A stretch of 35,513 nt of DNA from Bacteroidota bacterium (GCA_029907355.1 JARYLZ010000025.1:1-35513), one strand, 5' to 3'; shown: positions 9,542 to 35,513, numbered from the stretch's first letter. A program made the numbers and translations. Notes: generated by a model from the letters alone, not told the origin.

Positions 9542-9605
9542 CGGGAAGCTTGATTTATTGTGGATAGACGTATCTTTTCTCTATATTTTTCTTCGGAAAA
9601 TCGGC

Positions 9606-9634
9606 TTGACATTCCCAGACCCGTTCTGTAATTT
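9606..9634 (+). promoter_or_regulatory. Promoter-like site upstream of the P-domain protein gene
   Basis: A consensus TTGACA (9606-9611) and TAATTT followed by G (9629-9635) are 17 bases apart, in an AT-richer stretch just after the LamG gene. It would give a long leader of about 175 bases before the ATG at 9818; no riboswitch-like fold was recognised in that leader. Confidence 0.6.
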
Positions 9635-9817
9635 GACGCTCGACTTGGCCCTTTCATCCCGATACCGGCATTGGATCCACGGAACGAACCCGCCTCTTTT
9701 CCGAACGTTTCGCCGTTGACGGGATCGCCCCCATCACATCCTCGCATTGTCATCGTGAGTGCACGCGATAAATCAGCGAACCACACATTTACTTTCCCAA
9801 CTGCTTGGAGGTATTCT

Positions 9818-13561: not shown

Positions 13562-13608
13562 GCCGCGGGGATTCCCCGCATCACCTCGCGACACGGGTCG
13601 CGATAAAC

Positions 13609-13643
13609 GGCGGGCGCCCGGATCACCGGGCGCCCGTTTTTTT
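13609..13643 (+). terminator. Rho-independent terminator after the P-domain protein gene
   Basis: The ten-base GC-only arm CGGGCGCCCG occurs at 13611-13620 and again at 13627-13636, separated by GATCAC. Because the arm is its own reverse complement the two copies pair perfectly. Seven T residues follow at 13637-13643. It lies 50 bases after the stop codon and is the clearest terminator in the window. Confidence 0.92.
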
Positions 13644-13741
13644 CTGATCGGCGGGAGAGGGCATCGGCCTCGACGGCGTTTCCCCTTTCCCTCGAACGCG
13701 ATTTCGCGTATTTTCAAACAGCAGAAACAACTCTTCGTACC

Positions 13742-17424: not shown

Positions 17425-18963
17425 TTATTCGAGAGGTCCGATGCGCCGTTCCACGGCTTCCAGGATGGCGCCGTTGCGCACGAGTTCCGCCGCACGCCGG
17501 AGGTCTTCGGCGAGCACGCGGTCGTCCCCGAGGGACGGGATGACTTCGCGGATCGCCGCGTGCGCCGCGCTTGTCCCGCGTCCCATGGCGAGCGGTGCAT
17601 GGAAGTCCAGTCCTTGCGCAGCGGCGACGAATTCGATGGCGACGACCTGCTCGGCGTTGAGGAGAACGTGGAAAGCTTTCCGCGCGGCGATCGCGCCCAT
17701 GCTGTTGTGGTCTTCCTGGTTGGCGGAAGTCGGGATGGAATCGACACTCGCGGGGTGCGCGAGGACCTTGTTTTCCGAGACGAGGGCGGCGGCGGTGTAC
17801 TGCGCGATCATCAAGCCGCTGTTGAGGCCGCCGTTCCGTGTGAGGAAGCGCGGCAGTCCGCTGAGCGAACCGTTGACCAACCGCTCGATGCGGCGCTCGG
17901 AGATGCCTGCGAGCTCCGCGAGGGCGACGGCGAGGAAATCGCCTGCGAGGGCGACGGGTTCGCCGTGGAAATTCCCTCCCTCGATGAGTTCCTCGCCGTC
18001 GGCGAAGACGAGGGGGTTGTCCGTCACAGAATTGATCTCCACGGCGAGCACGCCCCGCACGTAATCCATCGCGTCGCGCATGGCTCCGTGCACCTGGGGA
18101 ATGCAACGGAGCGAGTACGCGTCCTGGACGATCTCGTGCCCGTGCCGATGCGCCTCGCGGATGGCACTTCCCTCGAGCAGGCGGAGCACGTTCCGCGCCG
18201 AGCGCTGCTGACCGGGGTGCGGGCGGACGGCGTGGAGCCGCGGCGAACAGGAGCGGTCCGTCCCACGGAGGGCTTCCATCGTCATGGCGCCCGCGATATC
18301 GCACTGGCGGGCCAGCGATGCGGCACGCACGGCGGCCAGCGACAGGTAGGCCGTCATCATCTGCGTCCCGTTGATGAGCGCGAGACCTTCCTTCGCCGCG
18401 AGGGTCGGCGGCGTCAGCCCCGCTGTGCGGAGCGCTTCCGCGATAGGACGGCGCCCATTCCCCTCCGCATCCCAGCACTCGCCGACACCCGTCATTCCGA
18501 GCACGAGGTGGGAGAGGGGAACCAGGTCGCCGCTCGAACCGACCGACCCCTGCGAGGGAATCACCGGAACGATGTCGGCGTTGAGCATGTCGAGGAGGAA
18601 ACGAACGGTCTCGACGCGGATGCCGGAATACCCGCCGGCGAGCGCATTCGCGCGGAGAAGCATCATCGCGCGCGTGACGGGTTTCGGGATCGGTTCGCCG
18701 CACCCCGCAGAATGGCTCACGATGAGGTTCTTCTGCAGCTGCTCGATGGCATCCTCGTCGATCGAGACCGTGCTGAATTCCCCGAAGCCGGTCGTGACAC
18801 CGTACATGGTGCGCTTCTCGCGGACCCATCGTTCGACGAGATCGCGCGAAGCCTGCATTCTCCTGCATGCATCCGGGTCAAGGGAAACCTCGCCGCCGCG
18901 TACCGCGATTGCGAACACGTCATCGAGCGTGAGCGAGGAACCGTCGAGTCGAAGGACAACCAT
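17425..18963 (-). CDS. hutH: Histidine ammonia-lyase family enzyme with Ser-Ser-Gly MIO triad
   Basis: A 512-residue MIO-dependent aromatic amino acid lyase, the normal length for HutH. The active-site Tyr54 lies in MYGVTTGFGEF. The cofactor-forming triad is Ser143-Ser144-Gly145 in GSVGSSGDLVPLSHL, where histidine ammonia-lyases usually have Ala-Ser-Gly. SHSAG (His84) and the Glu in NQEDHNSMG correspond to residues linked to histidine selectivity, and QDAYSLRCIPQVHGA is strongly conserved in the family. The expected reaction is histidine to urocanate plus ammonia. No hutU, hutI or hutG lies nearby. The start is ATG at 18963; the frame continues 19 codons upstream, but a promoter-like site at 18998-19027 would leave these out. 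Tyrosine lyase or an aminomutase are alternatives because of the altered triad. Confidence 0.9.
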   Translation of the reverse strand: MVVLRLDGSSLTLDDVFAIAVRGGEVSLDPDACRRMQASRDLVERWVREKRTMYGVTTGFGEFSTVSIDEDAIEQLQKNLIVSHSAGCGEPIPKPVTRAMMLLRANALAGGYSGIRVETVRFLLDMLNADIVPVIPSQGSVGSSGDLVPLSHLVLGMTGVGECWDAEGNGRRPIAEALRTAGLTPPTLAAKEGLALINGTQMMTAYLSLAAVRAASLARQCDIAGAMTMEALRGTDRSCSPRLHAVRPHPGQQRSARNVLRLLEGSAIREAHRHGHEIVQDAYSLRCIPQVHGAMRDAMDYVRGVLAVEINSVTDNPLVFADGEELIEGGNFHGEPVALAGDFLAVALAELAGISERRIERLVNGSLSGLPRFLTRNGGLNSGLMIAQYTAAALVSENKVLAHPASVDSIPTSANQEDHNSMGAIAARKAFHVLLNAEQVVAIEFVAAAQGLDFHAPLAMGRGTSAAHAAIREVIPSLGDDRVLAEDLRRAAELVRNGAILEAVERRIGPLE

Positions 18964-18997
18964 GGGAGGCAGGAGATCGGCTGAATATACTCGCCGC

Positions 18998-19027
18998 CAA
19001 ACTACGAAGGAACGACACATCGTTCAA
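18998..19027 (-). promoter_or_regulatory. Promoter-like site upstream of hutH
   Basis: Reading the minus strand, TTGAAC (19027 to 19022) and TAGTTTG (19004 to 18998) are separated by 17 bases and end 34 bases before the hutH ATG. Its form matches the site at 9606-9634. It supports the start at 18963 rather than the upstream in-frame ATG at 19020. Confidence 0.5.
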
Positions 19028-19217: not shown

Positions 19218-21176
19218 ATGACACGGCCTTTCCGAGTGAGTCTCACCGCCTTCGGCGCGCTGCTTCTGCTCTATACCTTGCTCCGCCTCGGCTTCTACGT
19301 GGTGAACGGGGCATACTACACCGACGTCTCCGCCGTCGAGGTGTTCCGCGCTTTCGTCCGCGGTGTCCGCTTCGACGCGGCGGGCATTCTTCTCCTCAAC
19401 GTGCCCGTGCTCCTCCTTTACCTTCTCCCGGGCGAGCCTTCGCGTCTACGGTGGTACAGGGCTTTCGTGTTCGGTCTCTTCCTCCTCCTCAACGTCACCG
19501 CCATCGCCCTGAACCTCGCAGACTACGCCTACTACCCGATGGTTCAGCGCCGACTCCTCTACGAACCGTACACGATGCTGCCGGACCTGTGGCGCATGGC
19601 GCCCGCGACGCTTTCCCGTTACCGCTTCCTCGCCCTGGGTTTCGCCGTCCTCTCCGTGCTTTTCGCCCTCGGTATGTCGCGTCTCCTTCGTGCCGTGGAA
19701 CGACGGCAAGCGGCCCCCCGCGCCCTGTGGAAGGAAATCCTCACGCTCGCCCTGGCGGCAGTTCTCGTCGTCATCGGCATCCGCGGCGGTCTGCAATTGA
19801 AACCTCTCCGCCAGAGCAACGCATTCGTGTCGCCCGTCCCCGCCCTAGGGTACCTGACGCTCAACAGCACGTACACGGTTTTACGGACGCTCTTTCAACC
19901 GGCACTGCCTGCGTACGATTTTCTCCCGCAGGCGGAGGCGCAAGCGGAAGTCCGGACCCTGCTTGCCTCCTGCGGCGAGATGTTCCCCGATACGGCCTAC
20001 ACTTTTCTCCGAAAGCGTGCCCCCGCCGATGGGGAGAGGCGGCTCAACGTCGTCATCATCATCATGGAGAGCTGGACGACCGTTTACAACGGCTGCATCA
20101 GCGGCAAGCGGACGATCACGCCGTTCTTCGACTCGCTGGCGCGCGGCGGCCTCCTTTTTTCGAACTTCATGGCGAACGGACAGCGCTCGATCGAGGCGGT
20201 CCCCTCGATCCTTGCTTCCATCCCCGGTCTCTATCACGCCTCGCTCATCGGCTCGAAGGCGGAAATGAACAACATTCGCGGGCTCGGCACGATCCTCCGC
20301 GAGCGGGGCTACACGACCTCCTTCCACCATGGCGCGACGACGGGATCGATGGGATTCGACGCGTTCGCGCGACTCGCAGGCTTTTTCCATTACTATGGGA
20401 AAGAATCCTACCCTTCCCCGGCCGATTCTCTCTTCGATCACGTCTGGGGGTTGAACGACGAACCCTTTTTCCTCGACGCCGTCGAGAAGATCTCCGCTCT
20501 TCCGCGTCCCTTCTGCTCCGTCCTCTTCTCCCTCTCCTCGCACATCCCTTTCGAGGTGCCGCGACACCGCCATCCGCTCTTCGAAGCGTACAAAGAGGAT
20601 GACGCCTTCGAACGATCTCTCCGCTACTCGGATTTCGCCCTCGGGCGGTTCTTTCACAGCGCCCGCGAGAAACCGTGGTTCGACAGTACGGTCTTCCTCA
20701 TCACCGCGGACCACACCATCTTCGGGGCACGCAACACGGTGCATTCTTACTACCATATCCCGCTGTTGATCTATGCCCCCTCGTTCATTCGACCGGGGAG
20801 GGAAGACCGCATCGGTTCGCACGTCGACATTCTGCCGACGATTCTCGACCTGCTCGGGATACCGGCTTTCCACGCTTCGATGGGGCGTTCCCTGCTGGAT
20901 CCCGACCGCGTCCCGTTTGCGGTGGAACGCAACGGACCGGAGTATTGCATCTTCGATGATTCCCTCCTCTACGTTCACGACTTGGAAAACGAGAAGGGGC
21001 TATTCCGGTATCGCGAAAACCCGAAAACAGCGTGCGATGTGCGTGCCGTGTATCTTGAGCACGCAGCGAGGCTGCGGCGCATGCTTTTTTCGTATCTCCA
21101 GACCGTGACACACGCGCTGGCGGACAACCGCATCGTCCCGCCGGACTTGGTGAGATACATGAATCACCGACGATGA
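19218..21176 (+). CDS. LtaS/sulfatase-family membrane phospho- or sulfo-transferase
   Basis: A 652-residue protein with five N-terminal membrane helices (about residues 8-28, 53-70, 80-100, 136-156, 172-190) and a large extracytoplasmic sulfatase domain from about 270. This is the layout of lipoteichoic acid synthase and related phosphoglycerol or phosphoethanolamine transferases. Metal ligands appear as Glu284 (IIIMESWT) and Asp498-His499 (ITADHT). The expected nucleophile position is Ser324 in ANGQRSIEAVPSIL, where LtaS has threonine. SLSSHIPFEVP and HVDILPTILDLLGIP are family strands. A Gram-negative enzyme of this type would modify an envelope glycan or lipid; the substrate is not predictable. 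It is divergent from hutH over a 254-base gap. No strong SD is seen before the ATG. Confidence 0.88.
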   Translation: MTRPFRVSLTAFGALLLLYTLLRLGFYVVNGAYYTDVSAVEVFRAFVRGVRFDAAGILLLNVPVLLLYLLPGEPSRLRWYRAFVFGLFLLLNVTAIALNLADYAYYPMVQRRLLYEPYTMLPDLWRMAPATLSRYRFLALGFAVLSVLFALGMSRLLRAVERRQAAPRALWKEILTLALAAVLVVIGIRGGLQLKPLRQSNAFVSPVPALGYLTLNSTYTVLRTLFQPALPAYDFLPQAEAQAEVRTLLASCGEMFPDTAYTFLRKRAPADGERRLNVVIIIMESWTTVYNGCISGKRTITPFFDSLARGGLLFSNFMANGQRSIEAVPSILASIPGLYHASLIGSKAEMNNIRGLGTILRERGYTTSFHHGATTGSMGFDAFARLAGFFHYYGKESYPSPADSLFDHVWGLNDEPFFLDAVEKISALPRPFCSVLFSLSSHIPFEVPRHRHPLFEAYKEDDAFERSLRYSDFALGRFFHSAREKPWFDSTVFLITADHTIFGARNTVHSYYHIPLLIYAPSFIRPGREDRIGSHVDILPTILDLLGIPAFHASMGRSLLDPDRVPFAVERNGPEYCIFDDSLLYVHDLENEKGLFRYRENPKTACDVRAVYLEHAARLRRMLFSYLQTVTHALADNRIVPPDLVRYMNHRR

Positions 21177-22644: not shown

Positions 22645-25600
22645 ATGGTCAGTCTGTCGATATTTTTGTTGCCGGTTACAGTATCCTGCGCACATGTTGT
22701 CGATTGGTTCGTAAACGTGGGGAGCCGCGATGGAGCCCCGTTGACGGAACGTAGCCATTCCCCTCGTATCTCCTGCGTTTCACCCCCTCTCGCCTTCATC
22801 GAGAATGCAGGGCACGTTCGCGATCTCAGCGGACGGCAGCGGCCCGATGTCCTGTACCTGCTCGACGGTCGGAACGCGTGGTTGTATTTCACCGCCCGCT
22901 CCGTCAGTTTCGTTTTCCCGGGTAAACATCTTGAGGGAGAGAATACCCGGCAACAGGAACACATGAGTGGCCGGGTGCGGAACGGGGCGGGCATTCGGCG
23001 CATCGACATGGTCTTCGAGGGTGCTTCGGCCCACCCTGTCGTTGTTCCCGAGGACCCCCTCGACGTTGCCGTCTCGTTTTACACCCCCGCTGCGACCGCC
23101 GGCGTCCGCGTCGAGCGCGTGTACCGCACGCTCCGCTACCGCGGTATTTACGAGGGCATCGACCTTCTCTTCACCGTGAAGGACGATGGCGTCAAATACG
23201 CATTCATCATCCGGCCGGGGGGGAGGATATCGGATATCCGCATCCGTTATCTGGGTGCCGGGGACGTCTCGATCACACCCGGCGGCACTCTACAGGCCCT
23301 CTCGCCGGAGGGTGTCCTCGACGATTCCGCTCCCGTCGCGTGGACATCGCCCTTCCCGTTTTCTGGGACACTCCCGACCAGTCTCGAGTATTGCACGGCG
23401 GCGGAGCGGAGCGCCCCGGTCCTTGTGGACCGCGTTCTCGAAGGCTGTACGACGCGGTTCAGGGCGGCGCCCTACGACGGGAACTCGACACTCGTGATCG
23501 ACCCGTTCCTCCAGTGGTCGACGTACTTCGGCGGTTCCGCCCCGGATTACGCCCGGGCGGCCTGCATGGACGCGCAGGGGAATCTCTACATCGCCGGCTA
23601 TACGATGAGCACCGATTTCCCCGTGACCCCCGGCGCTTTCCAGGGGAAGAATGCAGGCAAACTGGATGTTTTCGTCGCAAAATTCGACCCATCCCGCGAG
23701 AAGGCATGGTGTACCTACTATGGCGGGTCGGGGGAAGAGGAATCGCCGCGGATCGCACCTGTGCCGGCGGGCGGTGTGGTCGTGTCGGGGAACACCACGA
23801 GCGATGATTTCCCCGTGTCGGCCGGCGCTTTCCAACCGCACAACAACGGGAAAACCGACATGTTTCTCCTCAAGCTCGACGCGGAAGGTGTGCGCGAGTG
23901 GGCCACATATTTCGGCGGGGGATTGAGCGACGAGTGTGCGGGTCTCGCGGTCTCGCGCGGGGGCGACATCGCCATTGCGGGCGGGACGTTCAGCACGAAT
24001 TTCCCCGTGAGCCGCGGTGCTTTTCAGACGATCAACACCGGGGACTTCGATGCCGTCGTCGCTCGCTTCAGCCCGGCGGGCGCGAGGATATGGGCGACGT
24101 ATATCGGCGGCTGGGGCATGGATTTCGCGACGTCCGTCGTGTTCGCGGGCAACGGGGAACTGTGCGTCGCCGGGTATACCGAAAGTCAGAATTTCCCCGT
24201 GTCGAGCCGGGCGGCGCAAGGGCGATACGGCGGGGGGCCTTACGATATGTTCGTCGGCCGTTTCACCGAGACCGGGTCCCTCGCCTGGGTCACGTACTGT
24301 GGCGGGAGCCGAGAAGACCGGGCGACGTCCGTCACGACGGACCGCACGGGGCGGATCATCGTCATCGGCCAGACGGAAAGCGGGGATTTCCCCGGCCTCG
24401 AGAAGGCGGGCGGCCAGGGCACCCAAGCATCCATCGACGCCGTCGTCGTGGAAATGGACGTGAAGGGTACGATCGTCCGCTCCCAACGGTTCGGGGGACG
24501 CGGGATCGATATCGCCACCGCGCACGTCGTGGACGACGCGGGGAATGTCATCATCGTCGGGCAGACGGAGAGCGTGGATTTCCCGGTCACCCACGACGCG
24601 TTCCAGCAAAAGCACGGCGGGGCATCCGACGTGTTCCTCGCGCGATTCAACGCCGCGGGGAGCAGAGTGTTCTCGACGTATTTCGGCGGGAGGGACCAGG
24701 ATATCCCTTACGGCATCGCCGTGGAAGCGAACGGGAACATTATCGTCACCGGCATCACGTCGAGCACGGATTTCTTCACGAGAAACGCTTCTCAGCGGAA
24801 GAGAGCGGGCTACACGGACGCGTTTCTCCTTCGCGTCGTGTTCGACGAGCCCGTCGCCAACGCGGGACCCGACACGATGGTCTGCCTCGGTTCGAGCGTG
24901 CAGATCGGGAGGCAGGCGAGCCGCGGGAAACCTCCTTACCGTTTCGCGTGGAAACCGTCCACGGCTTTGAGCGATCCTACTGCGATGTCCCCTCTCGCAG
25001 CGCCGCGCAAGACGACGGTCTATGAACTCACCGTCATGGATGCGGAGGGTGCGACGGGAACGGATTCCGTGACCGTCAGGGTCGTCGATCCCCCCCGTGT
25101 GAATGCCGGGAAAGACCGAGCGGTGTGCAAAGGGGACAGCGTCGTGCTCGCGGCGCATGTGAGCGGCGGTCTCAGCCCGTACTGGTATTCGTGGTCCCCT
25201 GCGACGGGTTTGAGCGCGACAGACGTTCTCTCCCCGAGGGTATTTCCGGGCGAGACGACACGCTTTACGCTGACCGTGCGCGACATGAACGGTTGTGTCG
25301 CATCGGATTCCGTCCTCGTCACGGTCTTCCCGCCGGTCGAGGCACATGCAGGGGACGATGTGACAATCTGTGCGGGCTCGGAGACGACCCTGGGTCTGTC
25401 CCCCACGGGCGGGAAAGCGCCTTACACGTACCGCTGGTCGCCGGCCGAAGGGCTCTCTTCCACCTCCTCGGTACGACCAACCGCAAAGCCGGATCGGACG
25501 ACGACATACTCGCTCGAGGTGACCGACGCGAACGGCTGCGTTGGGCGGGACACCGTAACCGTTCGCATCCTGGAACGCATTCGTGCGGATGCAGGGCCGG

Positions 25601-28038
25601 ACCGCTCGATTTGTCCCGGCGAACGTGTCCGGCTCGGTGGGACAACCCCGACGGGCAGGGGCCCCTTCCGTTACGAGTGGACCCCCGTCGCGGGATTGAA
25701 CAGCGCAACGGTTCCGGACCCCATCGCCTATCCGGTTCACACGACGGATTACGTGCTCACCGTGACGGACGCGAACGGGTGTACGGGGAGCGATACCGTT
25801 CGGGTGTCGGTCAACAGCATGGTGCGCGTGGATGCAGGTGCGGATATGGATCTCTGCGAGGGGAACCGTGTACGAATCGGGTCGCCTGCGGAGGGTGGGA
25901 CTCCGCCGTACACGTATGCCTGGACACCCGCCAGGGGATTGAGTTCGCCGTCCGATGCCCAACCGTTGGCCGCCCCGACGGAAACGGAGCGATACGTCGT
26001 CACGGTAACGGACGCCAACGGGTGCACGGCGCGCGATACCGTGGTTGTTTCCGTGCACGCAGTGCCGCGCGTGAAAACCGACCCCGATTTTTCGATCTGC
26101 CGCGGCTCACGGAGGAAGATCACCGCGACCGTCCGGGGCGGGCAGAGACCGATCCATTTCCGATGGACGCCGCAGATGGGCTTGAGTGCGTATGACGTTC
26201 CGAATCCCATCGCGAGCCCCGACACGACGACGGTGTACATCGTGACCGCCACGGACGCGAACGGGTGTACTTCGACGGACACGATCGTCATCACGGTACG
26301 CCCTTGCAGCCGCGCGGACGCGGGAGCCGATGTCGAAATCTGTGCGGGTTCAGAAACGGCTCTCGGCGGGGAACCGGCCGACCCGATGGAACAGCCACAG
26401 TATTTCTGGATGCCTGCGACCGGGCTGAGCGCGGCGAACAGGCATCGAACCACTGCAAAACCGCGCGAGACGACGACGTACATTCTCCGTGTCACGAACA
26501 TGTACGGGTGCGAGAGCCTCGATACCGTCACGGTCACCGTCCATCCGGGACCGATCGCGGACGCCGGCCCACCGGTCGCGATCTGCGAAAGGGAGCGAAC
26601 AGTGATCGGACATTATGCGAGCGGCGGTTTGCCGCCGTATTCGTATTCGTGGCAGCCTGAGGCAGGACTCGACGACCCGCACGAACCCCGCCCGACGGCT
26701 CAACCGCAGGTTTCCACCTCGTATATCCTGACGGTAACGGATGCACGGGGCTGTGCGTCCTCGGATACGGTCCCGGTAACGGTGCGCCCCGTGCCCATCG
26801 CCGAGGCGGGCCGCGATATGGAGATATGCAGCGGGACGGCGGTGAGACTCGGCGCTGCCGCCTCCGGTGGTCGAGGTCCGTTCATCTACAGCTGGACGCC
26901 CGCCTTCGGTTTGGACGATCCTCGCTCCGCTGGTCCTGTCGCAACGCCGCCGGTGACGACGGTGTACCATCTCACAGTAACGAACGCGGAAGGGTGCAGT
27001 GCGCACGACAGCGTCCTCATCGTGGTGCACGCCTCGCCGTCCCCGCGTATTCGGAGCGACGGGCCGACGACGTTCTGCGAAGGGGAGAACGTGACGCTCG
27101 ACGCGGGAGGGGACTACAAGGCGTATTCGTGGAGCGACGGTTCCACGACCCGCAGCGTCAATGTCCGATCATCCGGCGAGTATCGGGTGACCGCGATCGA
27201 CGAGTTCGGATGCAGAGGCGTTTCGGAGGCGGAACGGGTTCGGGTCATCCCGCTCCCGAGACCGCGCATCGTCGTCCTCGGGCGGAACGCCCTCTGCGAG
27301 GGGGAAAGCGTGTCCCTGGATGCAGGAGCCGGTTATGCCTCCTACCGATGGTCGACGGGCGACACCGCTCGCGTGATCTCCGTTGGGCGCGAAGGGACCT
27401 ACACCGTGTCGGTCACGAACGCGGAAGGGTGCGAAGCGTCGGCGGACCCTGTCGTCGTGACCGTGCGCCCGAGACCCCGTCCGATCGTTTCCCGGTGCCG
27501 TGACACGCTGACGGTGACACCTGCCGCGTCGTACCAGTGGCTGGTTGACGGGAAACCGTTGCGTGGCGCGGTGAACCGCGAATGCATCGCGGACAGGACG
27601 GGTTCCTACGCCGCCGTCGTACGGAATGCCGAAGGCTGCTCTGCACAGTCGGATCCCGTGGATGTCGTCATCGGCAGTTGTACGGCTGCGCTGGGCAGGA
27701 AAACCGCCCGGCGTGGCGACACCGTCCATATCGCTCTCGAGTGCAAGGCGGAGAGGGAACTCGATCGAAGCGGGGCGGTATCTTTCGAAGCGTCGATCCG
27801 CGTGAGAAAGGGAGAACTCGCTCTGCTCGATTCCACGCTGGCCGTTTCCGACGAAGACGGGACCTCTGTGATCATGGTACGCGGAACGCGTACGCCCGGT
27901 TCGCCTGTCCTCGCACGCATCCCTTTCCGTGCGCCGGGGAAAGCGGGACGTTTCCGCCTTTCCCTGGTCTCGTTCCGCTGGCTGGACGGCACGGCGCGTG
28001 CCGTGACACGCGACGGCGAAGTGCGCGTGATCCCCTGA
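22645..28038 (+). CDS. Giant surface protein 1: SBBP propeller with nine 81-residue Ig/PKD-like repeats, no sorting domain
   Basis: A 1797-residue protein. ATG at 22645 is chosen because a signal peptide follows at once (MVSLSIFLLPVTVSCA); no good SD is seen and an upstream TTG (22574) cannot be excluded. Residues about 45-290 are the N-terminal domain common to SBBP proteins (DUF7948-like): RQRPDVLYLLDG, then YRGIYEGIDLLFTVKDDGVK. From 23515 to 24846 there are seven SBBP repeats of the WSTYFGGS...D...GN...TDFPV type, enough for one seven-bladed propeller. Nine Ig/PKD-like repeats follow (24850-27033), then two 73-residue repeats, a degenerate third, and a cohesin-like module (27682-28035) ending RVIP. 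Each complete repeat has two cysteines, as in ICAG and NGC. Unlike its neighbour it lacks a T9SS sorting domain. It is probably an adhesin or surface stalk. Confidence 0.88.
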   Translation: MVSLSIFLLPVTVSCAHVVDWFVNVGSRDGAPLTERSHSPRISCVSPPLAFIENAGHVRDLSGRQRPDVLYLLDGRNAWLYFTARSVSFVFPGKHLEGENTRQQEHMSGRVRNGAGIRRIDMVFEGASAHPVVVPEDPLDVAVSFYTPAATAGVRVERVYRTLRYRGIYEGIDLLFTVKDDGVKYAFIIRPGGRISDIRIRYLGAGDVSITPGGTLQALSPEGVLDDSAPVAWTSPFPFSGTLPTSLEYCTAAERSAPVLVDRVLEGCTTRFRAAPYDGNSTLVIDPFLQWSTYFGGSAPDYARAACMDAQGNLYIAGYTMSTDFPVTPGAFQGKNAGKLDVFVAKFDPSREKAWCTYYGGSGEEESPRIAPVPAGGVVVSGNTTSDDFPVSAGAFQPHNNGKTDMFLLKLDAEGVREWATYFGGGLSDECAGLAVSRGGDIAIAGGTFSTNFPVSRGAFQTINTGDFDAVVARFSPAGARIWATYIGGWGMDFATSVVFAGNGELCVAGYTESQNFPVSSRAAQGRYGGGPYDMFVGRFTETGSLAWVTYCGGSREDRATSVTTDRTGRIIVIGQTESGDFPGLEKAGGQGTQASIDAVVVEMDVKGTIVRSQRFGGRGIDIATAHVVDDAGNVIIVGQTESVDFPVTHDAFQQKHGGASDVFLARFNAAGSRVFSTYFGGRDQDIPYGIAVEANGNIIVTGITSSTDFFTRNASQRKRAGYTDAFLLRVVFDEPVANAGPDTMVCLGSSVQIGRQASRGKPPYRFAWKPSTALSDPTAMSPLAAPRKTTVYELTVMDAEGATGTDSVTVRVVDPPRVNAGKDRAVCKGDSVVLAAHVSGGLSPYWYSWSPATGLSATDVLSPRVFPGETTRFTLTVRDMNGCVASDSVLVTVFPPVEAHAGDDVTICAGSETTLGLSPTGGKAPYTYRWSPAEGLSSTSSVRPTAKPDRTTTYSLEVTDANGCVGRDTVTVRILERIRADAGPDRSICPGERVRLGGTTPTGRGPFRYEWTPVAGLNSATVPDPIAYPVHTTDYVLTVTDANGCTGSDTVRVSVNSMVRVDAGADMDLCEGNRVRIGSPAEGGTPPYTYAWTPARGLSSPSDAQPLAAPTETERYVVTVTDANGCTARDTVVVSVHAVPRVKTDPDFSICRGSRRKITATVRGGQRPIHFRWTPQMGLSAYDVPNPIASPDTTTVYIVTATDANGCTSTDTIVITVRPCSRADAGADVEICAGSETALGGEPADPMEQPQYFWMPATGLSAANRHRTTAKPRETTTYILRVTNMYGCESLDTVTVTVHPGPIADAGPPVAICERERTVIGHYASGGLPPYSYSWQPEAGLDDPHEPRPTAQPQVSTSYILTVTDARGCASSDTVPVTVRPVPIAEAGRDMEICSGTAVRLGAAASGGRGPFIYSWTPAFGLDDPRSAGPVATPPVTTVYHLTVTNAEGCSAHDSVLIVVHASPSPRIRSDGPTTFCEGENVTLDAGGDYKAYSWSDGSTTRSVNVRSSGEYRVTAIDEFGCRGVSEAERVRVIPLPRPRIVVLGRNALCEGESVSLDAGAGYASYRWSTGDTARVISVGREGTYTVSVTNAEGCEASADPVVVTVRPRPRPIVSRCRDTLTVTPAASYQWLVDGKPLRGAVNRECIADRTGSYAAVVRNAEGCSAQSDPVDVVIGSCTAALGRKTARRGDTVHIALECKAERELDRSGAVSFEASIRVRKGELALLDSTLAVSDEDGTSVIMVRGTRTPGSPVLARIPFRAPGKAGRFRLSLVSFRWLDGTARAVTRDGEVRVIP
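23515..24846 (+). repeat. Seven SBBP beta-propeller repeats in giant protein 1
   Basis: The units begin at WSTYFGGS, WCTYYGGS, WATYFGGG, WATYIGGW, WVTYCGGS, RSQRFGGR and FSTYFGGR, each about 63 residues long. Each then has a GN or GG turn, a (T/S)xxDFPV-like strand, and DxFxxKF before the next unit. The sixth unit is the most degenerate. Seven is the count expected for one closed propeller. Confidence 0.85.
24850..27033 (+). repeat. Nine tandem Ig/PKD-like repeats of about 81 residues in giant protein 1
   Basis: The block is 728 codons, or 80.9 per unit. A unit runs from an ADAG(A/P)D-like start through (I/V)C.G, GG..PY.Y.W.P..GLS, and TT.Y.LTVTDANGC to a DTV.V.V end. The units differ at the protein level and more so in DNA, so this is an old expansion. 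Two cysteines in most units suggest disulfides; the first unit has lost its second cysteine. Confidence 0.88.
27034..27681 (+). repeat. Two 73-residue Ig-like repeats plus one degenerate copy in giant protein 1
   Basis: Units at 27034-27255 and 27256-27474 carry FCEG or LCEG, LDAG, a Y.W(S).G(D/S)(T) strand and an FGC or EGC near the end, as in giant protein 2. The third (27475-27681) is degenerate, with RDTL in place of the FCEG strand, and closely parallels the degenerate last unit of giant protein 2. Confidence 0.82.
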
Positions 28039-28793
28039 CCACGGAATCGTCTGTATTCCCATCGCTCGGGGATCGGAGCATGATGAGGTATGACATCGGT
28101 GTGTGAAAAATACGATTGTCCGAAAGACCCCATCGCCCTTTGGGCGACATGGTGCGCCATCCTTCCCGGCACAGGTCTCATCGGAAAGAAGTATAGACGC
28201 CGAGACGAGCAGGAATGAACGCGAACTGGGCGGGAACATACCCAGCGAGGAGGTTCGCATTCACGTATCGGACGGAAAGAATGAATGATCTACCGGGAAA
28301 TGCAACAATCCTTCGAGGTGCTATCCGTCAGTGCGATCGCTTCGTTAGCACCGGCCGCAGAGGTCCCTCGACGTTCCACGAGAGGATGCCTTTCCCGGGT
28401 ACATGCCGGAACCGGTGATCGCGATGTCCCTGAGATGCGAAGCACGGTTGCATGCATATCGGGAGGATTCCGTTCGTCGGTCGCTGAATAATGCACGGAT
28501 GGGGGACGGTGAAACCGCCCTTTTCCCGATCCGACAAGGCCGCCATGGTTTTGACTGTGGTCCGGCGATGATGAGAGATTATCCGAGCATCGCTTCATCG
28601 CACGATCGACCATTTTCAAGAGTGAGCGGTACATGCCGAACGCGTCGTGCCTGCTATCCCATGCGCGTTTTCGGAGGGGGTGCATCTGCGCGGGTCTTTG
28701 GTGAGAAACTCCGTTTTCTCGGTCGATGATTGTCGGGAAGACGTGCTGCCGTTTTGTAAGGCGCACGTTCGACAGATTCTTGAAGGAGGAAAA
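28039..28793 (+). other. 755 bases without a recognisable gene between giant proteins 1 and 2
   Basis: No frame gives a protein-like product. I looked here for a displaced sorting domain for giant protein 1 in all three forward frames and found none: after its TGA the same frame closes again within 15 codons. No strong terminator is visible. The last bases (28781-28790) form the strong SD of the leader ORF. Confidence 0.5.
28785..28790 (+). promoter_or_regulatory. Strong ribosome binding site before a 22-codon leader
   Basis: GAAGGAGGA lies at 28782-28790, with the near-perfect AGGAGG-type core at 28785-28790. It sits 3 to 4 bases before an ATG at 28794, and is the best ribosome binding site seen in the window. 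It is 69 bases upstream of the giant protein 2 start, too far to serve it directly. Confidence 0.7.
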
Positions 28794-28862
28794 ATGGGCT
28801 GGATTGTCCGCTTCGTTTTTTCTAGTTTCTCGAAGAATTTCACCATACGCGAATCTCGATGA
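28794..28862 (+). CDS. 22-residue leader peptide overlapping the start of giant protein 2
   Basis: The ATG at 28794 has the strongest SD in the window. It opens a 22-codon frame (MGWIVRFVFSSFSKNFTIRES and one arginine) whose TGA at 28860-28862 overlaps the giant protein 2 ATG at 28859 as ATGA. This is the classic geometry of translational coupling. The peptide has a hydrophobic beginning. The alternative is that it is the original N terminus of giant protein 2, separated by a frameshift: the main frame has a TAG at 28823-28825, so a simple shift inside the last 12 codons would join them. No attenuator fold was recognised. Confidence 0.5.
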   Translation: MGWIVRFVFSSFSKNFTIRESR

Positions 28863-31800
28863 CCGTCGCACTCTTTCTCCTCGCCTCGCTTCTCTCCCCT
28901 CCCGGCGGAGATCATGCTGGGCTCGACCGTGGTGGGTACAGGCCCGAGAACAGCGCGGAATCGATCTCCCTCACGGGCTGGAGGTTCCTAAGAAACGACG
29001 GGAGAATCCGCGACACGCGGGGAAAGAAACGCGATGATATTCTCTACAGTGCCGATTTCGGGTCCCTGCGCGTCTATTTTTTCAGAGATCGCGTCTCGTA
29101 CGTTTTTCTCGAGCGCACCGGCGGGCAAGACGATGACGTGCATGAATGCATTCACACCCACGAGGCTGCGAGCGGGCATTCCTGCGGTGTCACGCTCGTG
29201 CGTGACGCCTACCGCGCCTACAGGGTCGATGCGCGTTTCGGGGGTGCCTCCCGCCGGGTGAACCTGCGGCCTGTCTGTCCTGGACCGTCTCTTTCCCGTG
29301 CCCCTCTTTCGCCTGCCGTCGAAACGGAGACGCTCGTCTATGAAGGGATCTACCCCGGCATCGATGCCGTGTTCACCGTGAAAAAAGGCGGCATCAAGTG
29401 CGATTGGGTTCTGCAACCCGGTGCACGTCCGGAGAACATCGAGCTCGCGTACATCGGGGCGAAAGCGATCCGCATCCAGCCATCGGGCGATCTGCTGATC
29501 GAAACGCCGCTCGGTTCGATCATCGAAGGCGCACCTCTCCTATTCCCGGTCGAGGGGGCGGACCGGCCGGAGACCGTTTCACCGGACGGGAATCGGGCGC
29601 TTCCCGCACGCTTCGAGCTGGCGGGTTCTGTCGTGCGTCTGAGGGTCCCCACTTACGATGCGCGTTTCCCCATGCTCATTGACCCCTTTGTCGAGTGGTC
29701 TACATACATGGGAGGGGGGAGCACGGATTTCGGGACGGGAACGGCGATCGACCCCGACGGGAACGTCCTTCTCTGCGGCTGGACGACGAGCATCGATTTC
29801 CCGGTATCGGCGGGCGTCTTGCAGACCGTCCATGCAGGTAGGGAGGATGCCTTCGTCGCGAAGTTCGATCCCTCCGGCGTTCGGCTCTGGACGACATTCC
29901 TCGGTGGAGACACCCTCGATATCGCCATGGGGATAGCCACCGACCACACCGGGTCCATTGCCGTCATCGGGTACACGGCGAGCAGGAATTTCCCCGTCAC
30001 CACCGGTGCCTTTCAAGGGAATCTCCGAGGCAGTCACGACGTTTTCCTCGCGAAGCTCGGCCCCGATGGGACGGTCATGTGGTCCACGTTCATCGGCGGT
30101 TCGATGCAGGACGAGGGCGGTGCGGTCGCTTTCGACGCGACCGGGAACATCCTCGTGACGGGCCGCACGGTGAGCGGGGATTTCCCGGCCTCGTTCGGTT
30201 CGTTCCAGTTCACGAAAGCCGGATATTACGACGCGTTCATCGGGAAATTCCGCCCGGACGGCACGCGGGCCTGGATGACATTCTACGGGGGTAATTCCAC
30301 ACCGGACGAGTACGGAGAGGATTGGGGGCATTCCATCGCGGCCGCCCCCAACGGGGACGTCATCGTGTGCGGGCACACGACGAGCCCTGATTTCCCCGTT
30401 ACCCCCGATGCATTCCAGCGAGTGTATCGATCGAACCGGGACGGTTTCCTCGTGCGTTTCTCCGCGAACGGCGCGCGTCTCTATGCGACGTTCATCGGAG
30501 GCAGCGCGTGGGACGACGCGTACGGTTTGAGCGTCGACCGCCGCGGTGACATCATCCTGACGGGGGGAGTCGAAAGCCAGAATTTCCCCGTCACGCCGGG
30601 TGCGTTTCAAACCGTACGGCGCGGGACGACCGATGCGTTCATCGGCCGTTTCGACTCGAGCGGGGCATGCCGCTGGCTCACCTTGATCGGCAGCAGCGGA
30701 TCGGATTACGGGCACGGTACCGCCGTCTACCCGAGCGGGAACGCCCTCGTCGTGGGAAAGACGGACAGCACCGACTTCCCTGTGACACCGAGCGGCCCTC
30801 AACCTGCGCGTTGCGGCCCGGACTACTACGATGCGTTCATCGTGAAGATCAGCCCCGAGGGGAAGCCGCTGTGGTCGACCTACTACGGCGGTTCGGATAT
30901 GGAATACGGGATCGAGAACGAAGGCCTCGGCCGCGTGGCGGCAGATTGGCGTGGGACTGCTGCCGTCAGCGGCTGGACGGTCAGCCGGGATTTTCCCGTC
31001 ACGCCGATGGCATTCCAGAAAACGCATGCGGGCGGTTGGGATGCCTTTCTCGTCAAGCTCGGCTGCAACGTATCCCCTCCCGTCATCACGGCCGAGGGCC
31101 CGACATCCTTCTGCGAGGGTGGGTCGGTCCGTCTCGTCGCGGATTCGGGGTACGCGCACTATTTCTGGTCGACGGGCGACACGACGCGCGCAGTCACCGT
31201 TTCACGATCCGGCATGTACACCGTGCGGGCGATCGATGCGGACGATTGCGGTGCAGCCTCGGCGGAAATCCCCGTGACGGTGTTCCCCTTACCGACCCCG
31301 CTGGTTCTTCCCCTCGGCCCGACGGCGTTCTGCGAGCAGGACAGTGTCGTCCTGGACGGCGGCGAGGGCTTCCTGAGCTACAGGTGGTCCACGGGCGATA
31401 CATCCCGGATGATCACGGTGAAAACCTCAGTCTCGGTCTCCGTGACGGTGGTCGATTCGAACGGGTGTACCAGCGTTTCCCCCGCGATCGATATCGTCGT
31501 GTACCCGCGCCCCGTCGTATCCGTGACGGCATCCGGCCCTCTCGCGTTCTGCGACGGCGGGAGCGTGACGCTCGACGCGGGGGCGGGACATGCTCGCTAC
31601 CGCTGGTCGACGGGCGACACGACGCGTCGCTTGACCGTGACGCGGTCGGGTATCTACGATGTCGTCGTAACGAACGCGTTCGGGTGCGAAGCGCGTTCGC
31701 TCCCCGTTACAGTTACGGTCTACCCCCTTCCGAAGCCTTCCATCGTCGCCCTGGGCGATACGGTTCTCTGCGAAGGGGACAGCGTGACTCTCGATGCCGG

Positions 31801-33253
31801 TTCGGGTTACCTCGCGTATACCTGGACGACCGGTGAGAGGACGCGCAACATCGTCGTGCGATCGGCCGGATTATACGGTGTCACCGTGACGGATTCCAAC
31901 GGGTGCATGGCACCGGCGCGGCCGGTAGCTGTCACGGTCAACCCCCGACCCAGACCGGTGATCATCAGTCTCGGCCCGACTTCTTTCTGCGAAGGGGGTG
32001 AGGTAATCCTCGACGCAGGGGCAGGGTATGCCTCGTACCGCTGGTCGACGGGAGATACCGGGCGGACGCTCACGGTCCGCCGGACCGGTTCGTACTCCGT
32101 TACGACGGCATTCGAAACGGGGTGTACGGGGACCTCGCCGCCGGTAGCCGTGCTCGTTCATGCGAACCCGTCCCCCGTCATTACGCCCGCCGGGCTTACA
32201 TCGTTCTGCGACGGCGACAGTGTCGAACTGCGTGCACCTGCTGGTTTCGTCCGTTACCGCTGGTCGAACGGATCGACGAGCCCCGCTATTGTCGTCCGAG
32301 CGGCAGGATCGTACACCGTTCAAGTCGAGGATACGAACGGGTGCATCGGCGTTTCGCCTCCCGTCGAAGTGGTCGTATTCCCTCTCCCCCCTGTTCCCGT
32401 CATCACCCAACGGAAGGACACGCTGTTTTCGACCCGGGCCTCAGGGTACCGGTGGAAGGTGGATGGTGCGACAATCCCCGGTGGGGATGAACAGCGGCTG
32501 ATCATACCACGGTCCGGAACGTACACCGTGACAGTATTCAATGAATACGGCTGCTCCGCAGAGTCCGCACCATTTCCCGTAACCATCGCAACGGCGGCGG
32601 TACGCCTCCCCGATACCGAAGCTGCTCCAGGGGAGTTTATTTCGATCCCTCTTCTCTTGACCGGCTCGGAAAACCTGTTCCTTGCCGGCGCGAAGGATTT
32701 CCGAGCACGAGTCCGTTTCGAGTCTTCGATTCTCGAACCGGCAGTGGCGAACGCTTCCTGGTCGCGATCCGGCGCGGATTATGTGTTCGAGGTGCAGGGA
32801 GGTGCGTCCGATACGGTCGGTGTGCTCGCAACGATTCCCTGCCGCGCCATGCTGGGGGCAGTCGAACGAATTCCCTTGCGGATCGAGTCGTTCGAGTGGA
32901 CAGCAGGTGCGGTGCGGACGATGACGGCGGACGGAGTCTTTTCGCTCATCATCTGCCGCGAAGGCGGGCCCCGCCTTTTCGATGGAAGCAAACGGGCGTT
33001 CCTGGCTCAGAACAGACCCAATCCCTTCAACGCGCAAACCGTTATCTCTTTCGGGCTCGTCGAGGCAGGACCGATGCGTCTTGCCGTGTTCGACATGCTC
33101 GGGAGGCGAGTGAAAATTCTCGAAGAGGGCATGCGCGATGCCGGTCGTTACGAGACCGTATTCGACGCGGGAGACCTCCCTTCGGGTTCCTATCGTGTCG
33201 TCCTGGACAGTGGAACGACACATCTTACGCGCGTCGTCCACCTCGTAAAATAG
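28859..33253 (+). CDS. Giant surface protein 2: SBBP propeller, 73-residue Ig-like repeats, T9SS sorting domain
   Basis: A 1464-residue protein. The start ATG at 28859 overlaps the leader stop. The signal peptide is short (MTVALFLLASLLSPPGG) and lacks a basic n-region, which keeps open the frameshift idea. Residues about 35-275 are the SBBP-associated N-terminal domain (IRDTRGKKRDDILY, then YEGIYPGIDAVFTVKKGG). Seven SBBP repeats lie at 29696-31075. Six Ig-like repeats of about 73 residues (31076-32386) and a degenerate seventh follow. Next is a cohesin-like beta module (about 32597-32970). The end, 33005-33250, is a type A T9SS sorting domain: NRPNPFNAQTVISF, LAVFDMLGRRVKILEEG and GSYRVVL. 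It should cross the outer membrane through T9SS and be anchored or released, with the propeller displayed distally. The ligand is unknown. Confidence 0.92.
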   Translation: MTVALFLLASLLSPPGGDHAGLDRGGYRPENSAESISLTGWRFLRNDGRIRDTRGKKRDDILYSADFGSLRVYFFRDRVSYVFLERTGGQDDDVHECIHTHEAASGHSCGVTLVRDAYRAYRVDARFGGASRRVNLRPVCPGPSLSRAPLSPAVETETLVYEGIYPGIDAVFTVKKGGIKCDWVLQPGARPENIELAYIGAKAIRIQPSGDLLIETPLGSIIEGAPLLFPVEGADRPETVSPDGNRALPARFELAGSVVRLRVPTYDARFPMLIDPFVEWSTYMGGGSTDFGTGTAIDPDGNVLLCGWTTSIDFPVSAGVLQTVHAGREDAFVAKFDPSGVRLWTTFLGGDTLDIAMGIATDHTGSIAVIGYTASRNFPVTTGAFQGNLRGSHDVFLAKLGPDGTVMWSTFIGGSMQDEGGAVAFDATGNILVTGRTVSGDFPASFGSFQFTKAGYYDAFIGKFRPDGTRAWMTFYGGNSTPDEYGEDWGHSIAAAPNGDVIVCGHTTSPDFPVTPDAFQRVYRSNRDGFLVRFSANGARLYATFIGGSAWDDAYGLSVDRRGDIILTGGVESQNFPVTPGAFQTVRRGTTDAFIGRFDSSGACRWLTLIGSSGSDYGHGTAVYPSGNALVVGKTDSTDFPVTPSGPQPARCGPDYYDAFIVKISPEGKPLWSTYYGGSDMEYGIENEGLGRVAADWRGTAAVSGWTVSRDFPVTPMAFQKTHAGGWDAFLVKLGCNVSPPVITAEGPTSFCEGGSVRLVADSGYAHYFWSTGDTTRAVTVSRSGMYTVRAIDADDCGAASAEIPVTVFPLPTPLVLPLGPTAFCEQDSVVLDGGEGFLSYRWSTGDTSRMITVKTSVSVSVTVVDSNGCTSVSPAIDIVVYPRPVVSVTASGPLAFCDGGSVTLDAGAGHARYRWSTGDTTRRLTVTRSGIYDVVVTNAFGCEARSLPVTVTVYPLPKPSIVALGDTVLCEGDSVTLDAGSGYLAYTWTTGERTRNIVVRSAGLYGVTVTDSNGCMAPARPVAVTVNPRPRPVIISLGPTSFCEGGEVILDAGAGYASYRWSTGDTGRTLTVRRTGSYSVTTAFETGCTGTSPPVAVLVHANPSPVITPAGLTSFCDGDSVELRAPAGFVRYRWSNGSTSPAIVVRAAGSYTVQVEDTNGCIGVSPPVEVVVFPLPPVPVITQRKDTLFSTRASGYRWKVDGATIPGGDEQRLIIPRSGTYTVTVFNEYGCSAESAPFPVTIATAAVRLPDTEAAPGEFISIPLLLTGSENLFLAGAKDFRARVRFESSILEPAVANASWSRSGADYVFEVQGGASDTVGVLATIPCRAMLGAVERIPLRIESFEWTAGAVRTMTADGVFSLIICREGGPRLFDGSKRAFLAQNRPNPFNAQTVISFGLVEAGPMRLAVFDMLGRRVKILEEGMRDAGRYETVFDAGDLPSGSYRVVLDSGTTHLTRVVHLVK
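29696..31075 (+). repeat. Seven SBBP beta-propeller repeats in giant protein 2
   Basis: The units begin WSTYMGGG, WTTFLGGD, WSTFIGGS, WMTFYGGN, YATFIGGS, WLTLIGSS and WSTYYGGS. The fourth has an insertion after its GGN (PDEYGEDWG) and the seventh a smaller one (ENEGLG), so their loops should stand out from the propeller. DFPVT and DAF strands recur in nearly every unit. Confidence 0.85.
31076..32386 (+). repeat. Six tandem 73-residue Ig-like repeats in giant protein 2
   Basis: The block is 437 codons, or 72.8 per unit. The consensus runs P.P.I...GPTSFC(E/D)G, SV.LDAG.GY..YRWSTGDT, then a TV...G.Y.V.V.(D/N) strand and NGC (or GC), closing with V.V.V.P. The two cysteines per unit are conserved in all six. 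A degenerate seventh (32387 to about 32596) lacks the first cysteine. Confidence 0.88.
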
Positions 33254-33380
33254 GAACGGTTGGGAATGAGTGCCCGGCGGCAATATCTGCGACGAGAAAA
33301 AGCACGGGGCAATCGTGTGGATCGGGCGCAAAGTATGAAGGGGGACATGGTTCGATAGTGATCCTACGGCGGGTCGTTCG

Positions 33381-35513
33381 ATGTCGGAAGGAATGAAACG
33401 GATTTTCGACAAGATGGTTCATGTACCCGCCGTGTATCGGCTGGTTTCGGTGTCCGTCGTTGTAGCCCTCGCGGCGCTTCCCGTGCAACGAATTTTGGGT
33501 GGTGAACAACCGGGTGGCGTGAAGGACCTGCTTCAGCCGGGAAACGTGTTCGCCCCTCCCTTGCTTGGTGAATCTGCCGATGGCGTGTTCGTGGAGAACC
33601 GCCACGATATCCGCGATACGCGGGGCAAGGACCGATCGGACATTGTCTTCATACTCCGCGGGAAAGGGTGGGACGTTTTCTTCCGTCGGACCGGTGTCAG
33701 TTACGTTTTCCATCGCGTCGTTTCGAACGAGGATGAACATTTCCCCCTTCCCTCCGCTGTTGCCGGGAGGGTTTTCCCCCTCATCGAGGAATACAGGGTG
33801 GACGTGGAATTCATCCGCTGCCTGCCTTCGGTACGCCTCGAACCCGCGTCGCATGCCTTGGATGCGGTGAAATACTACACCCGCGGATGCATGGGGGGCT
33901 CGCGGCAAGCGTTCACACGCATCGCGTACCGCAACGTCTACGAAGGGATCGACATCGTTTTTTCCACGGAAAGCGGACGGTTGAAATACGATATCGTTGT
34001 CTCGCCGTGGGCGGAACCGTCCGAGGTATCGATGAGGTACAGCGGCGTCACGGCGGTTTTTCTCGATGGGTGGGGCAATCTTTCGGTCGAGACGCCATTC
34101 GGTGTCCTCCGGGAACTCGCACCGGTTGCCTTCACCGGTGGCGTGGGCGAGTCGAGCCGCGGGGCACTGCCGTATTCCGGTATGGGGGTACCCGTTGCGT
34201 ACCGTCTTGAAGGGTCGGAAGTGTCGTTCCACGTCGCTCCCTACCCGCGCGATCGAACACTGGTCATTGATCCCGGACTGGTATGGTCGACCTACTACGG
34301 CGGCGGGGCAGAGGATTGGGTGGCGGGTATCGCGCGGGACGCCGGCGGGAACGTGTACATCGTGGGGCGGACGCGCAGTTTGAACTTTCCCGTCGAAGCG
34401 GGTTACCGGATGGCCTCGGCAGGCGGGTGGGACGCATTCCTCGTGAAGCTCAACGCGCTCGGTCAGCGCGTGTGGGCGACATATTTGGGTGGGAGCGACC
34501 TCGATTACGGGTTCGGCGTCGCCGTCGATGCAACCGGCGGTCCGGTCATCTGCGGCTGGACGAAGAGCGACGACTTCCCCGTTCTCCATGCCGCACAAAC
34601 TGCCCGTGCAGGAGACCTGGACGCGTTCGTCGCTGCTTTCCGCAGTGACGGGACCCTGCGTTGGGCTACTTATTGCGGTGGGTCATTGGACGATCACGCC
34701 ATGAGCGTCGCCGCCGACCCAGTGGGCGGCATCGTCGTAACAGGCTGGACGTTGAGCATCGATTTCCCGACCGTATCACCCTTCCAGGCGACACAGGCAG
34801 GGTTTTCGGACATGATCGTCGTAAAATACGATACCCTCGGGAACGTCCTCTGGTCGACATACTTCGGCGGCAGCGGCCTCGATGAAGCATGGGATGCAGC
34901 GGTCGCCCCAAGCGGGACGGTGTACGTTTGCGGTCGTACAGGCAGTACGGATTTCCCAGCAGCGGGCGCGGCTCAGCCTGCACCGGCGGGAAACGTGGAT
35001 GCCTGTTCCGTCGCGTTGACGGCGGGGGGTACCCGCCTTTGGGCGACGTACTTTGGAGGGGGCAAGGACGAGTGCGCGTATGCCGTCGCGTGCGACGCCG
35101 CTGGCAATGTGTTCTGCACGGGCAGTACGGACAGCGACGACCTTCCTATTCTCAACGCTTTTCAGAAGAAACGAGCGCTGTTCCTCGATGCATGGGTCGC
35201 CAAGTACTCCCCTGGCGGTTCTCTCCAATGGTCAACCTACTACGGCGGAAACAGTTCGGATATCCCCGCCGACGCCGCGTGCGACCCCGCAGGCAACGTA
35301 ATCATCGCGGGGAGCAGCGGGAGTACGAGTCTTCCTCTCCTCAATGCCCCCATGCAGAAACGTGAGGGGGATGACGCGTTCATCGCCCGTTTCTCCGGGA
35401 ACGGCACACTGCTCTTCGCCGCTTTCGTCGGCGGGGGCAACAACGAGGGTGCGACGGGCGTCACATGGGGGGGCGGGCAATCCGCGGTAATGACCGGCAC
35501 AACGAACAGCATG
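33381..35513 (+). CDS. Giant surface protein 3: SBBP propeller protein, 3' truncated by window end
   Basis: The frame is open from 33381 to the last base, 711 codons, so the C terminus is unseen. ATG at 33393 is an alternative with GGAAGGA touching it; neither has ideal spacing. A basic n-region precedes a signal segment (LVSVSVVVALAALPV). Residues about 55-295 are the same N-terminal domain as in proteins 1 and 2 (IRDTRGKDRSDIVFIL, then YRNVYEGIDIVFSTESGRLK). SBBP repeats begin at 34284 (WSTYYGGG, WATYLGGS, WATYCGGS, WSTYFGGS, WATYFGGG, WSTYYGGN, and FAAFVGGG, cut off), so the count reaches seven again. It starts 127 bases after giant protein 2. Whether it has Ig-like repeats and a sorting domain must be read from beyond the window. 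Confidence 0.9.
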   Translation, partial: MSEGMKRIFDKMVHVPAVYRLVSVSVVVALAALPVQRILGGEQPGGVKDLLQPGNVFAPPLLGESADGVFVENRHDIRDTRGKDRSDIVFILRGKGWDVFFRRTGVSYVFHRVVSNEDEHFPLPSAVAGRVFPLIEEYRVDVEFIRCLPSVRLEPASHALDAVKYYTRGCMGGSRQAFTRIAYRNVYEGIDIVFSTESGRLKYDIVVSPWAEPSEVSMRYSGVTAVFLDGWGNLSVETPFGVLRELAPVAFTGGVGESSRGALPYSGMGVPVAYRLEGSEVSFHVAPYPRDRTLVIDPGLVWSTYYGGGAEDWVAGIARDAGGNVYIVGRTRSLNFPVEAGYRMASAGGWDAFLVKLNALGQRVWATYLGGSDLDYGFGVAVDATGGPVICGWTKSDDFPVLHAAQTARAGDLDAFVAAFRSDGTLRWATYCGGSLDDHAMSVAADPVGGIVVTGWTLSIDFPTVSPFQATQAGFSDMIVVKYDTLGNVLWSTYFGGSGLDEAWDAAVAPSGTVYVCGRTGSTDFPAAGAAQPAPAGNVDACSVALTAGGTRLWATYFGGGKDECAYAVACDAAGNVFCTGSTDSDDLPILNAFQKKRALFLDAWVAKYSPGGSLQWSTYYGGNSSDIPADAACDPAGNVIIAGSSGSTSLPLLNAPMQKREGDDAFIARFSGNGTLLFAAFVGGGNNEGATGVTWGGGQSAVMTGTTNSM
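34284..35513 (+). repeat. SBBP beta-propeller repeats in giant protein 3 (seventh cut by window end)
   Basis: Six complete units of about 61-63 residues and the start of a seventh. The strand before each turn is T.S.DFP-like in most units but becomes DDLP and TSLP in units five and six. Units are more regular in length than in giant protein 2, with no insertions. Confidence 0.83.

Follow-up and report, generated by a model that had tools for sequence, protein, structure and literature searches.

What three giant genes standing in a row on one strand encode, and how their products might be exported and held at the cell, is the question raised by a 35,513-nucleotide stretch of DNA from a Bacteroidota bacterium. 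This stretch, referred to below as the window, is contig C91 of an assembly of 3.25 Mb in 173 contigs (genome G000). The genes lie in tandem on the + strand, copy 1 at 22342/22645-28038, copy 2 at 28859-33253 (1464 aa) and copy 3 at 33381-35513, the last being incomplete because the contig itself stops at 35513. For copy 1 the frame is open from 22342, and the start at 22645, chosen in the original prediction made from the sequence alone, gives a hydrophobic N-terminus. All three copies have a signal-like N-terminus followed by a DUF7948 domain, seven SBBP propeller units and stalks that differ. We read the products as ligand-binding surface fibres that are exported by the type IX secretion system (T9SS) and held by a dedicated, wall-tethered barrel protein, and put the probability of this reading at roughly 0.55. 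The case for export comes from domain content, and from sequence we infer that a cohesin-fold domain at the fibre base would be the part anchored to the barrel.

T9SS substrates are known with two main sorting domains, with a separate shuttle for each. Copy 1 has about 1061 aa after its propeller and copy 2 has 732 aa; for copy 3, at least 1354 aa of stalk and C-terminus together lie on contig C15, its probable continuation. The copy 1 stalk (24847-27600) consists of repeated PKD-like units of 81 aa and then Ig-like units, and the protein terminates in a cohesin-like domain (27706-28029). In copy 2 a cohesin-fold domain (32621-32980) is indicated by a structure model of moderate confidence, whose top Foldseek matches are clostridial scaffoldins and cohesins with type I cohesins fitting best, and a T9SS type A sorting domain (TIGR04183) lies at 33017-33229 with a score of 23.5 bits against a cut-off of 23.0. 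A local profile also finds a sorting domain on the C15 continuation of copy 3. Nearly all other complete members of the DUF7948 family carry this domain, and neither copy 1 nor any of its seven complete orthologues has it (0/8 complete group members). A sorting domain hidden in another frame after copy 1 was considered and is not there: no frame between copy 1 and copy 2 holds one, and in the orthologues the next gene, which encodes the barrel, begins after only about 40-160 bases. The earlier description of all three as surface proteins thus gains a sorting domain for copy 2 and for the continuation of copy 3, and none for copy 1.

The stalks are constant within orthologue groups. Copy 1 stalks measure 1061 aa in both genomes that hold the array and 1304-1305 aa in the three others measured (G002, G003 and G006), the two lengths differing by three 81-aa PKD units, and copy 2 stalks, from three genomes, measure 732, 732 and 734 aa. 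Stalk length is fixed per orthologue group and shifts by whole units between groups. This constancy fits selection on reach; inheritance without unit exchange would give the same pattern.

The barrel gene encodes an N-terminal part resembling outer-membrane barrels (a weak family match), a proline linker and two OmpA domains. It is positioned downstream of the array or, where copy 1 stands alone, downstream of that gene, and it is immediately 3' of copy 1 in the six non-array genomes in which downstream sequence was seen. Counting full-length or frame-split copies in five genomes, 14 of 18 barrel-OmpA genes adjoin a same-strand cohesin-ending gene, up- or downstream, against about 0.04 expected from a rough gene-density estimate. 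Among DUF7948 proteins, the barrel-OmpA gene follows directly in 11/22 with a cohesin domain as against 4/63 without one (Fisher p 2e-5); both comparisons come from related genomes, so that independent events are fewer than the counts, and use a cohesin profile partly built from genes beside the partner. Four of the eleven cohesin-bearing DUF7948 proteins that are not directly followed by the partner occupy inner positions in the two arrays. As a separate observation, contig C114 of the same assembly holds a DUF7948-propeller gene (L014:6711-14319) that is apparently frame-shifted near its end, its cohesin and sorting domains lying in the second frame (13012-14319); a barrel-OmpA gene follows directly.

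A large surface protein whose gene is directly followed by that of its own outer-membrane barrel is also found in the SprB-SprF and PG1035-PorP-PorE systems. Large T9SS adhesins of this kind have a type B sorting domain that depends on a barrel shuttle, the product of the next gene downstream; the shuttle is also their anchor, and PorE ties PorP to the wall (PMC9143113, PMC12618676). The parallel between this substrate/shuttle pattern and a giant gene with a downstream barrel gene favours wall-anchored surface fibres. The wall link likewise involves an OmpA-like domain, which resides in PorE in the known system and is fused with the barrel here. Unlike those substrates, the present proteins have a cohesin-fold domain at the end, alone or together with a type A sorting domain. 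The type B sorting domain (TIGR04131) is found on no window protein, nor in G000, G001 and G004 in a search run without a positive control. Membership of the barrel-OmpA partner in the PorP/SprF family was rejected on the absence of a TIGR03519 match among those listed for these proteins, and canonical PorP/SprF shuttles have no match in G000, G001 and G004, whereas the same model matches strongly elsewhere in the phylum. The T9SS component searched for, the translocon gene sprA, is present in the window's own genome (SprA_N match, E 4e-51).

In the proposed arrangement, the head formed by DUF7948 and the seven-bladed propeller would bind a ligand, for adhesion or capture, with no catalysis indicated. 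The long PKD/Ig stalk would carry this head, and the cohesin-fold domain at its base would dock on the dedicated outer-membrane barrel protein encoded at the array end, whose two OmpA domains would grip the cell wall. As copy 1 has no sorting domain, the barrel partner may both receive it for export and anchor it. A broader proposal, which we hold to be tentative, is that these genes represent an undescribed Ignavibacteria branch of the T9SS, in which the cohesin-fold base would be an address label for a barrel-OmpA receiver and anchor replacing the absent PorP/SprF, copy 1 using this label in place of a sorting domain. Conserved giants without a recognised sorting domain beside their own barrel-wall anchor gene make such a third address label directly testable, and the barrel would give a number of the many "SBBP repeat" proteins annotated by domain alone a definite partner. 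The component parts are already known. Neither the array nor the linkage of cohesin and barrel genes appears to have been described in the literature searched, which returned no paper on DUF7948, on PKD, OmpA, T9SS and propeller together, or on Ignavibacteria with T9SS and OmpA, and which is no proof of absence from the literature.

Several observations weigh against anchoring through the cohesin-fold base. The copy 1 orthologue in G004 (L127:10388-16129) has no cohesin-like domain, and the barrel-OmpA gene is still directly downstream; the DUF7948 proteins at L105 and L112, in which no cohesin domain is detected, also precede the barrel gene. Of 47 cohesin-bearing genes, no more than 16 stand next to a barrel gene, and there are barrel-OmpA genes without a cohesin gene beside them. 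Type A sorting domains elsewhere are handled by PorV, with linkage to lipopolysaccharide (PMC9143113), so that the sorting domains of copies 2 and 3 would make a second anchor unnecessary.

These points lead to the best-surviving alternative, in which copies 2 and 3 are ordinary type A adhesins delivered via PorV and fixed to lipopolysaccharide, the barrel-OmpA protein is merely a co-expressed envelope stabiliser, and copy 1 is a paralogue that has degenerated or is periplasmic. The type A domain of copy 2 and of nearly all other complete family members agrees with it, as do the retention of the barrel gene in G004 and the fact that OmpA proteins are common envelope parts. The proteins closely resemble the DUF7948/SBBP-repeat T9SS proteins of Bacteroidota and Ignavibacteria, which combine PF25778, PF06739, PKD/Ig and TIGR04183 domains in the same order with seven SBBP units. 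Copies 2 and 3 share the sorting domain with these and the copy 1 group does not, and the window differs from them in its three fixed orthologous tandem copies with a barrel-OmpA gene. Copy 1, however, is not degraded-looking: a single clear orthologue is present in each of the 12 genomes of the family (12/12), the missing sorting domain is common to all complete group members, and the stalk keeps its length within each group. The adjacency of cohesin-ending and barrel genes also far exceeds chance. We regard this alternative as less likely than wall-anchored fibres, and as the likeliest of the rival readings.

The heads bear on what the fibres might do. DUF7948 (PF25778) is matched at 22795-23505 in copy 1 (E 7e-32), 28985-29686 in copy 2 (E 3e-29) and 33588-34274 in copy 3 (E 2e-38), with 112, 103 and 133 bits against a gathering score of 27. 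The SBBP propellers follow at 23512-24846, 29693-31057 and 34281-35513, scoring 60, 56 and 87 bits with PF06739 (gathering score 20.5; E 2e-16, 3e-15 and 9e-25). Units recur at a period of 63-72 aa in all copies. Copies 1 and 2 have seven each, the start of unit 6 in copy 1 being degenerate, and copy 3 has six together with the first half of a seventh, of which 32 residues are present before the contig ends. With a unit profile built from the DUF7948/SBBP family itself, full units have i-E-values of 6e-16 to 3e-27, and the partial one 5e-3. Structures were predicted for two regions, the copy 2 C-terminus discussed above and the copy 1 core, for which AlphaFold2, given only window proteins and named relatives as input sequences, produced 28 propeller strands forming seven four-stranded blades at a mean pLDDT (predicted local distance difference test score) of 77.

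The original prediction of three adjacent same-strand genes with a common N-terminal domain and seven propeller units each, cut within the seventh unit in copy 3 and followed by differing parts, is thus borne out, and apart from the contig cut no copy departs from the others in unit count. It had also proposed a conserved working head on a variable stalk. Equal seven-bladed heads on differing stalks are indeed present, but seven units are a family rule, the count being exactly seven in 64 of the 68 DUF7948 proteins, from the own genome and its relatives, that could accommodate a propeller; of the four remaining proteins, two show a double-length gap that probably hides an unrecognised degenerate unit, and a third has a distant additional match. 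That the heads are equal in size is thus to be expected, is nothing specific to the three copies and gives no sign of joint function. Two further observations concern the head domains. DUF7948 was also matched in the control genomes Bacillus subtilis and Methanosarcina acetivorans, and the domain is thus not restricted to Bacteroidota-type bacteria. A second DUF7948-like group (L041, L042, L043, L052 and similar loci) comprises proteins of about 1650-1750 aa in which DUF7948 is matched in part and few SBBP units can be recognised; the propeller may have diverged.

The propeller has one solved sequence relative, the cyanobacterial biosynthetic enzyme CylK (7fh6, 7ron; E 1e-29), which is also its best fold match (E 2e-27) and has a homologous seven-bladed SBBP-type propeller. 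As the CylK active site lies between the propeller and the N-terminal domain (PMC8916777), the head might be a surface-displayed enzyme of a similar kind, a possibility that we judge unlikely. The match is confined to the propeller, and a sequence search found no solved relative of the copy 1 DUF7948 domain. Arg105 of CylK has no counterpart because the N-terminal domain of that enzyme is a calcium beta-roll (PMC8916777) and DUF7948 takes its place here, and the position aligned to Asp440, as read from the alignment, is not acidic in copy 1. The residues best conserved in the propeller belong to the repeat frame (glycine, proline, threonine, tryptophan and aspartate), and CylK is not part of a fibre. 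CylK-like catalysis was accordingly rejected: the propeller homology is real and the catalytic positions are not shared. An SBBP propeller also occurs in the LipL53-family lipoproteins of Leptospira (NF047494), for which adhesion to host matrix proteins has been reported, according to a passage of PMC13066512 that cites the finding. The window copies score 83-92 bits with NF047494 against a cut-off of 400 bits and are not members of that family, whose lipoproteins span about 466 model positions and lack a stalk. The propeller form, the missing CylK catalytic frame and the reported matrix binding by LipL53 are the reasons for predicting a ligand-binding head.

The predicted fold of the base domain, alike to that of clostridial cohesins, would also suit a working cohesin that recruits dockerin-bearing enzymes into a cellulosome-like surface complex, and the best fit to type I cohesins and the scaffold with cohesins and a sorting domain proposed in Cloacimonadota (PMC8542988) are in keeping with this. 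Dockerins (PF00404), however, were not found in G000, G003 and G006, with three matches in G001 and one in G004; Pfam cohesin models have no match on the window proteins; and each fibre has a single cohesin-like domain at its membrane end rather than several in a row. With no dockerin in the own genome, the cellulosome was rejected, and a recruiting role of this kind seems improbable.

The array itself is old. In a tree of 71 cores and in a careful tree of 20, copies 1, 2 and 3 pair 1:1 with three tandem genes of G001, a genome of a different genus, at bootstrap values of 99-100, and order and strand are identical in both. The window copies are separated from each other by path lengths above 2.2 and from their G001 orthologues by about 1.1-1.2, and the array is therefore older than the divergence of the two genera. 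A redundant set produced by chance local duplication, to which recent tandem DUF7948 pairs in relatives such as G004 (L040) lend some plausibility, is very improbable at this age. The order in G001 is sulfatase, copy 1, copy 2, copy 3, barrel/OmpA, phosphatase. It is matched by the window, where a sulfatase-family gene (19218-21176, +; 60% identity) precedes the array, together with contig C15. This contig of 7645 bases starts inside a frame (L140:3583-7644, minus) that aligns at 43% identity with G001 copy 3 from residue 776 through to the C-terminus, followed by a barrel-OmpA gene (60% to G001) and a phosphatase gene (62%). As window copy 3 stops at G001 residue 715, about 60 residues would be missing between the contigs, and from this synteny copy 3 appears to run on from C91 into C15 across an unsequenced join.

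Conservation of the tandem arrangement, a check raised with the original prediction, holds for G001 and does not extend to the ten other genomes of the family, which have copy 1 and in which no orthologue of copy 2 or 3 was found. The named relatives that bear copy 1 are uncultured Bacteroidetes/Ignavibacteria metagenome bins. A copy 2 orthologue is present in G012, from another family of the order, as the second gene of a two-gene array that is followed by a barrel-OmpA gene. The first gene (L134:997-5070) encodes a giant with a choice-of-anchor-L head on a similar PKD stalk with a cohesin-like base and a sorting domain, indicating that heads can be swapped while stalk and base remain and that the DUF7948-propeller head is not tied to the array. 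The better clues to function are the cohesin-fold base, the downstream barrel-OmpA gene and the missing sorting domain of copy 1, all of which the original prediction had missed.

Other features of the window concern the spacing and surroundings of the array. The gap between copies 1 and 2 (28039-28858) measures 820 bases as against about 55 bases in G001, and the window array may thus hold an extra promoter or regulatory stretch. Upstream, the region 7775-14974 includes T9SS cargo-like genes encoding a LamG-domain protein with a sorting domain and a P-domain protein with a FlgD-like end, as well as a third cargo-like gene that has no Pfam match and resembles sorting-domain regions. An aromatic amino acid lyase gene (17425-19020, minus; E 1e-195) stands between the surface-protein genes.

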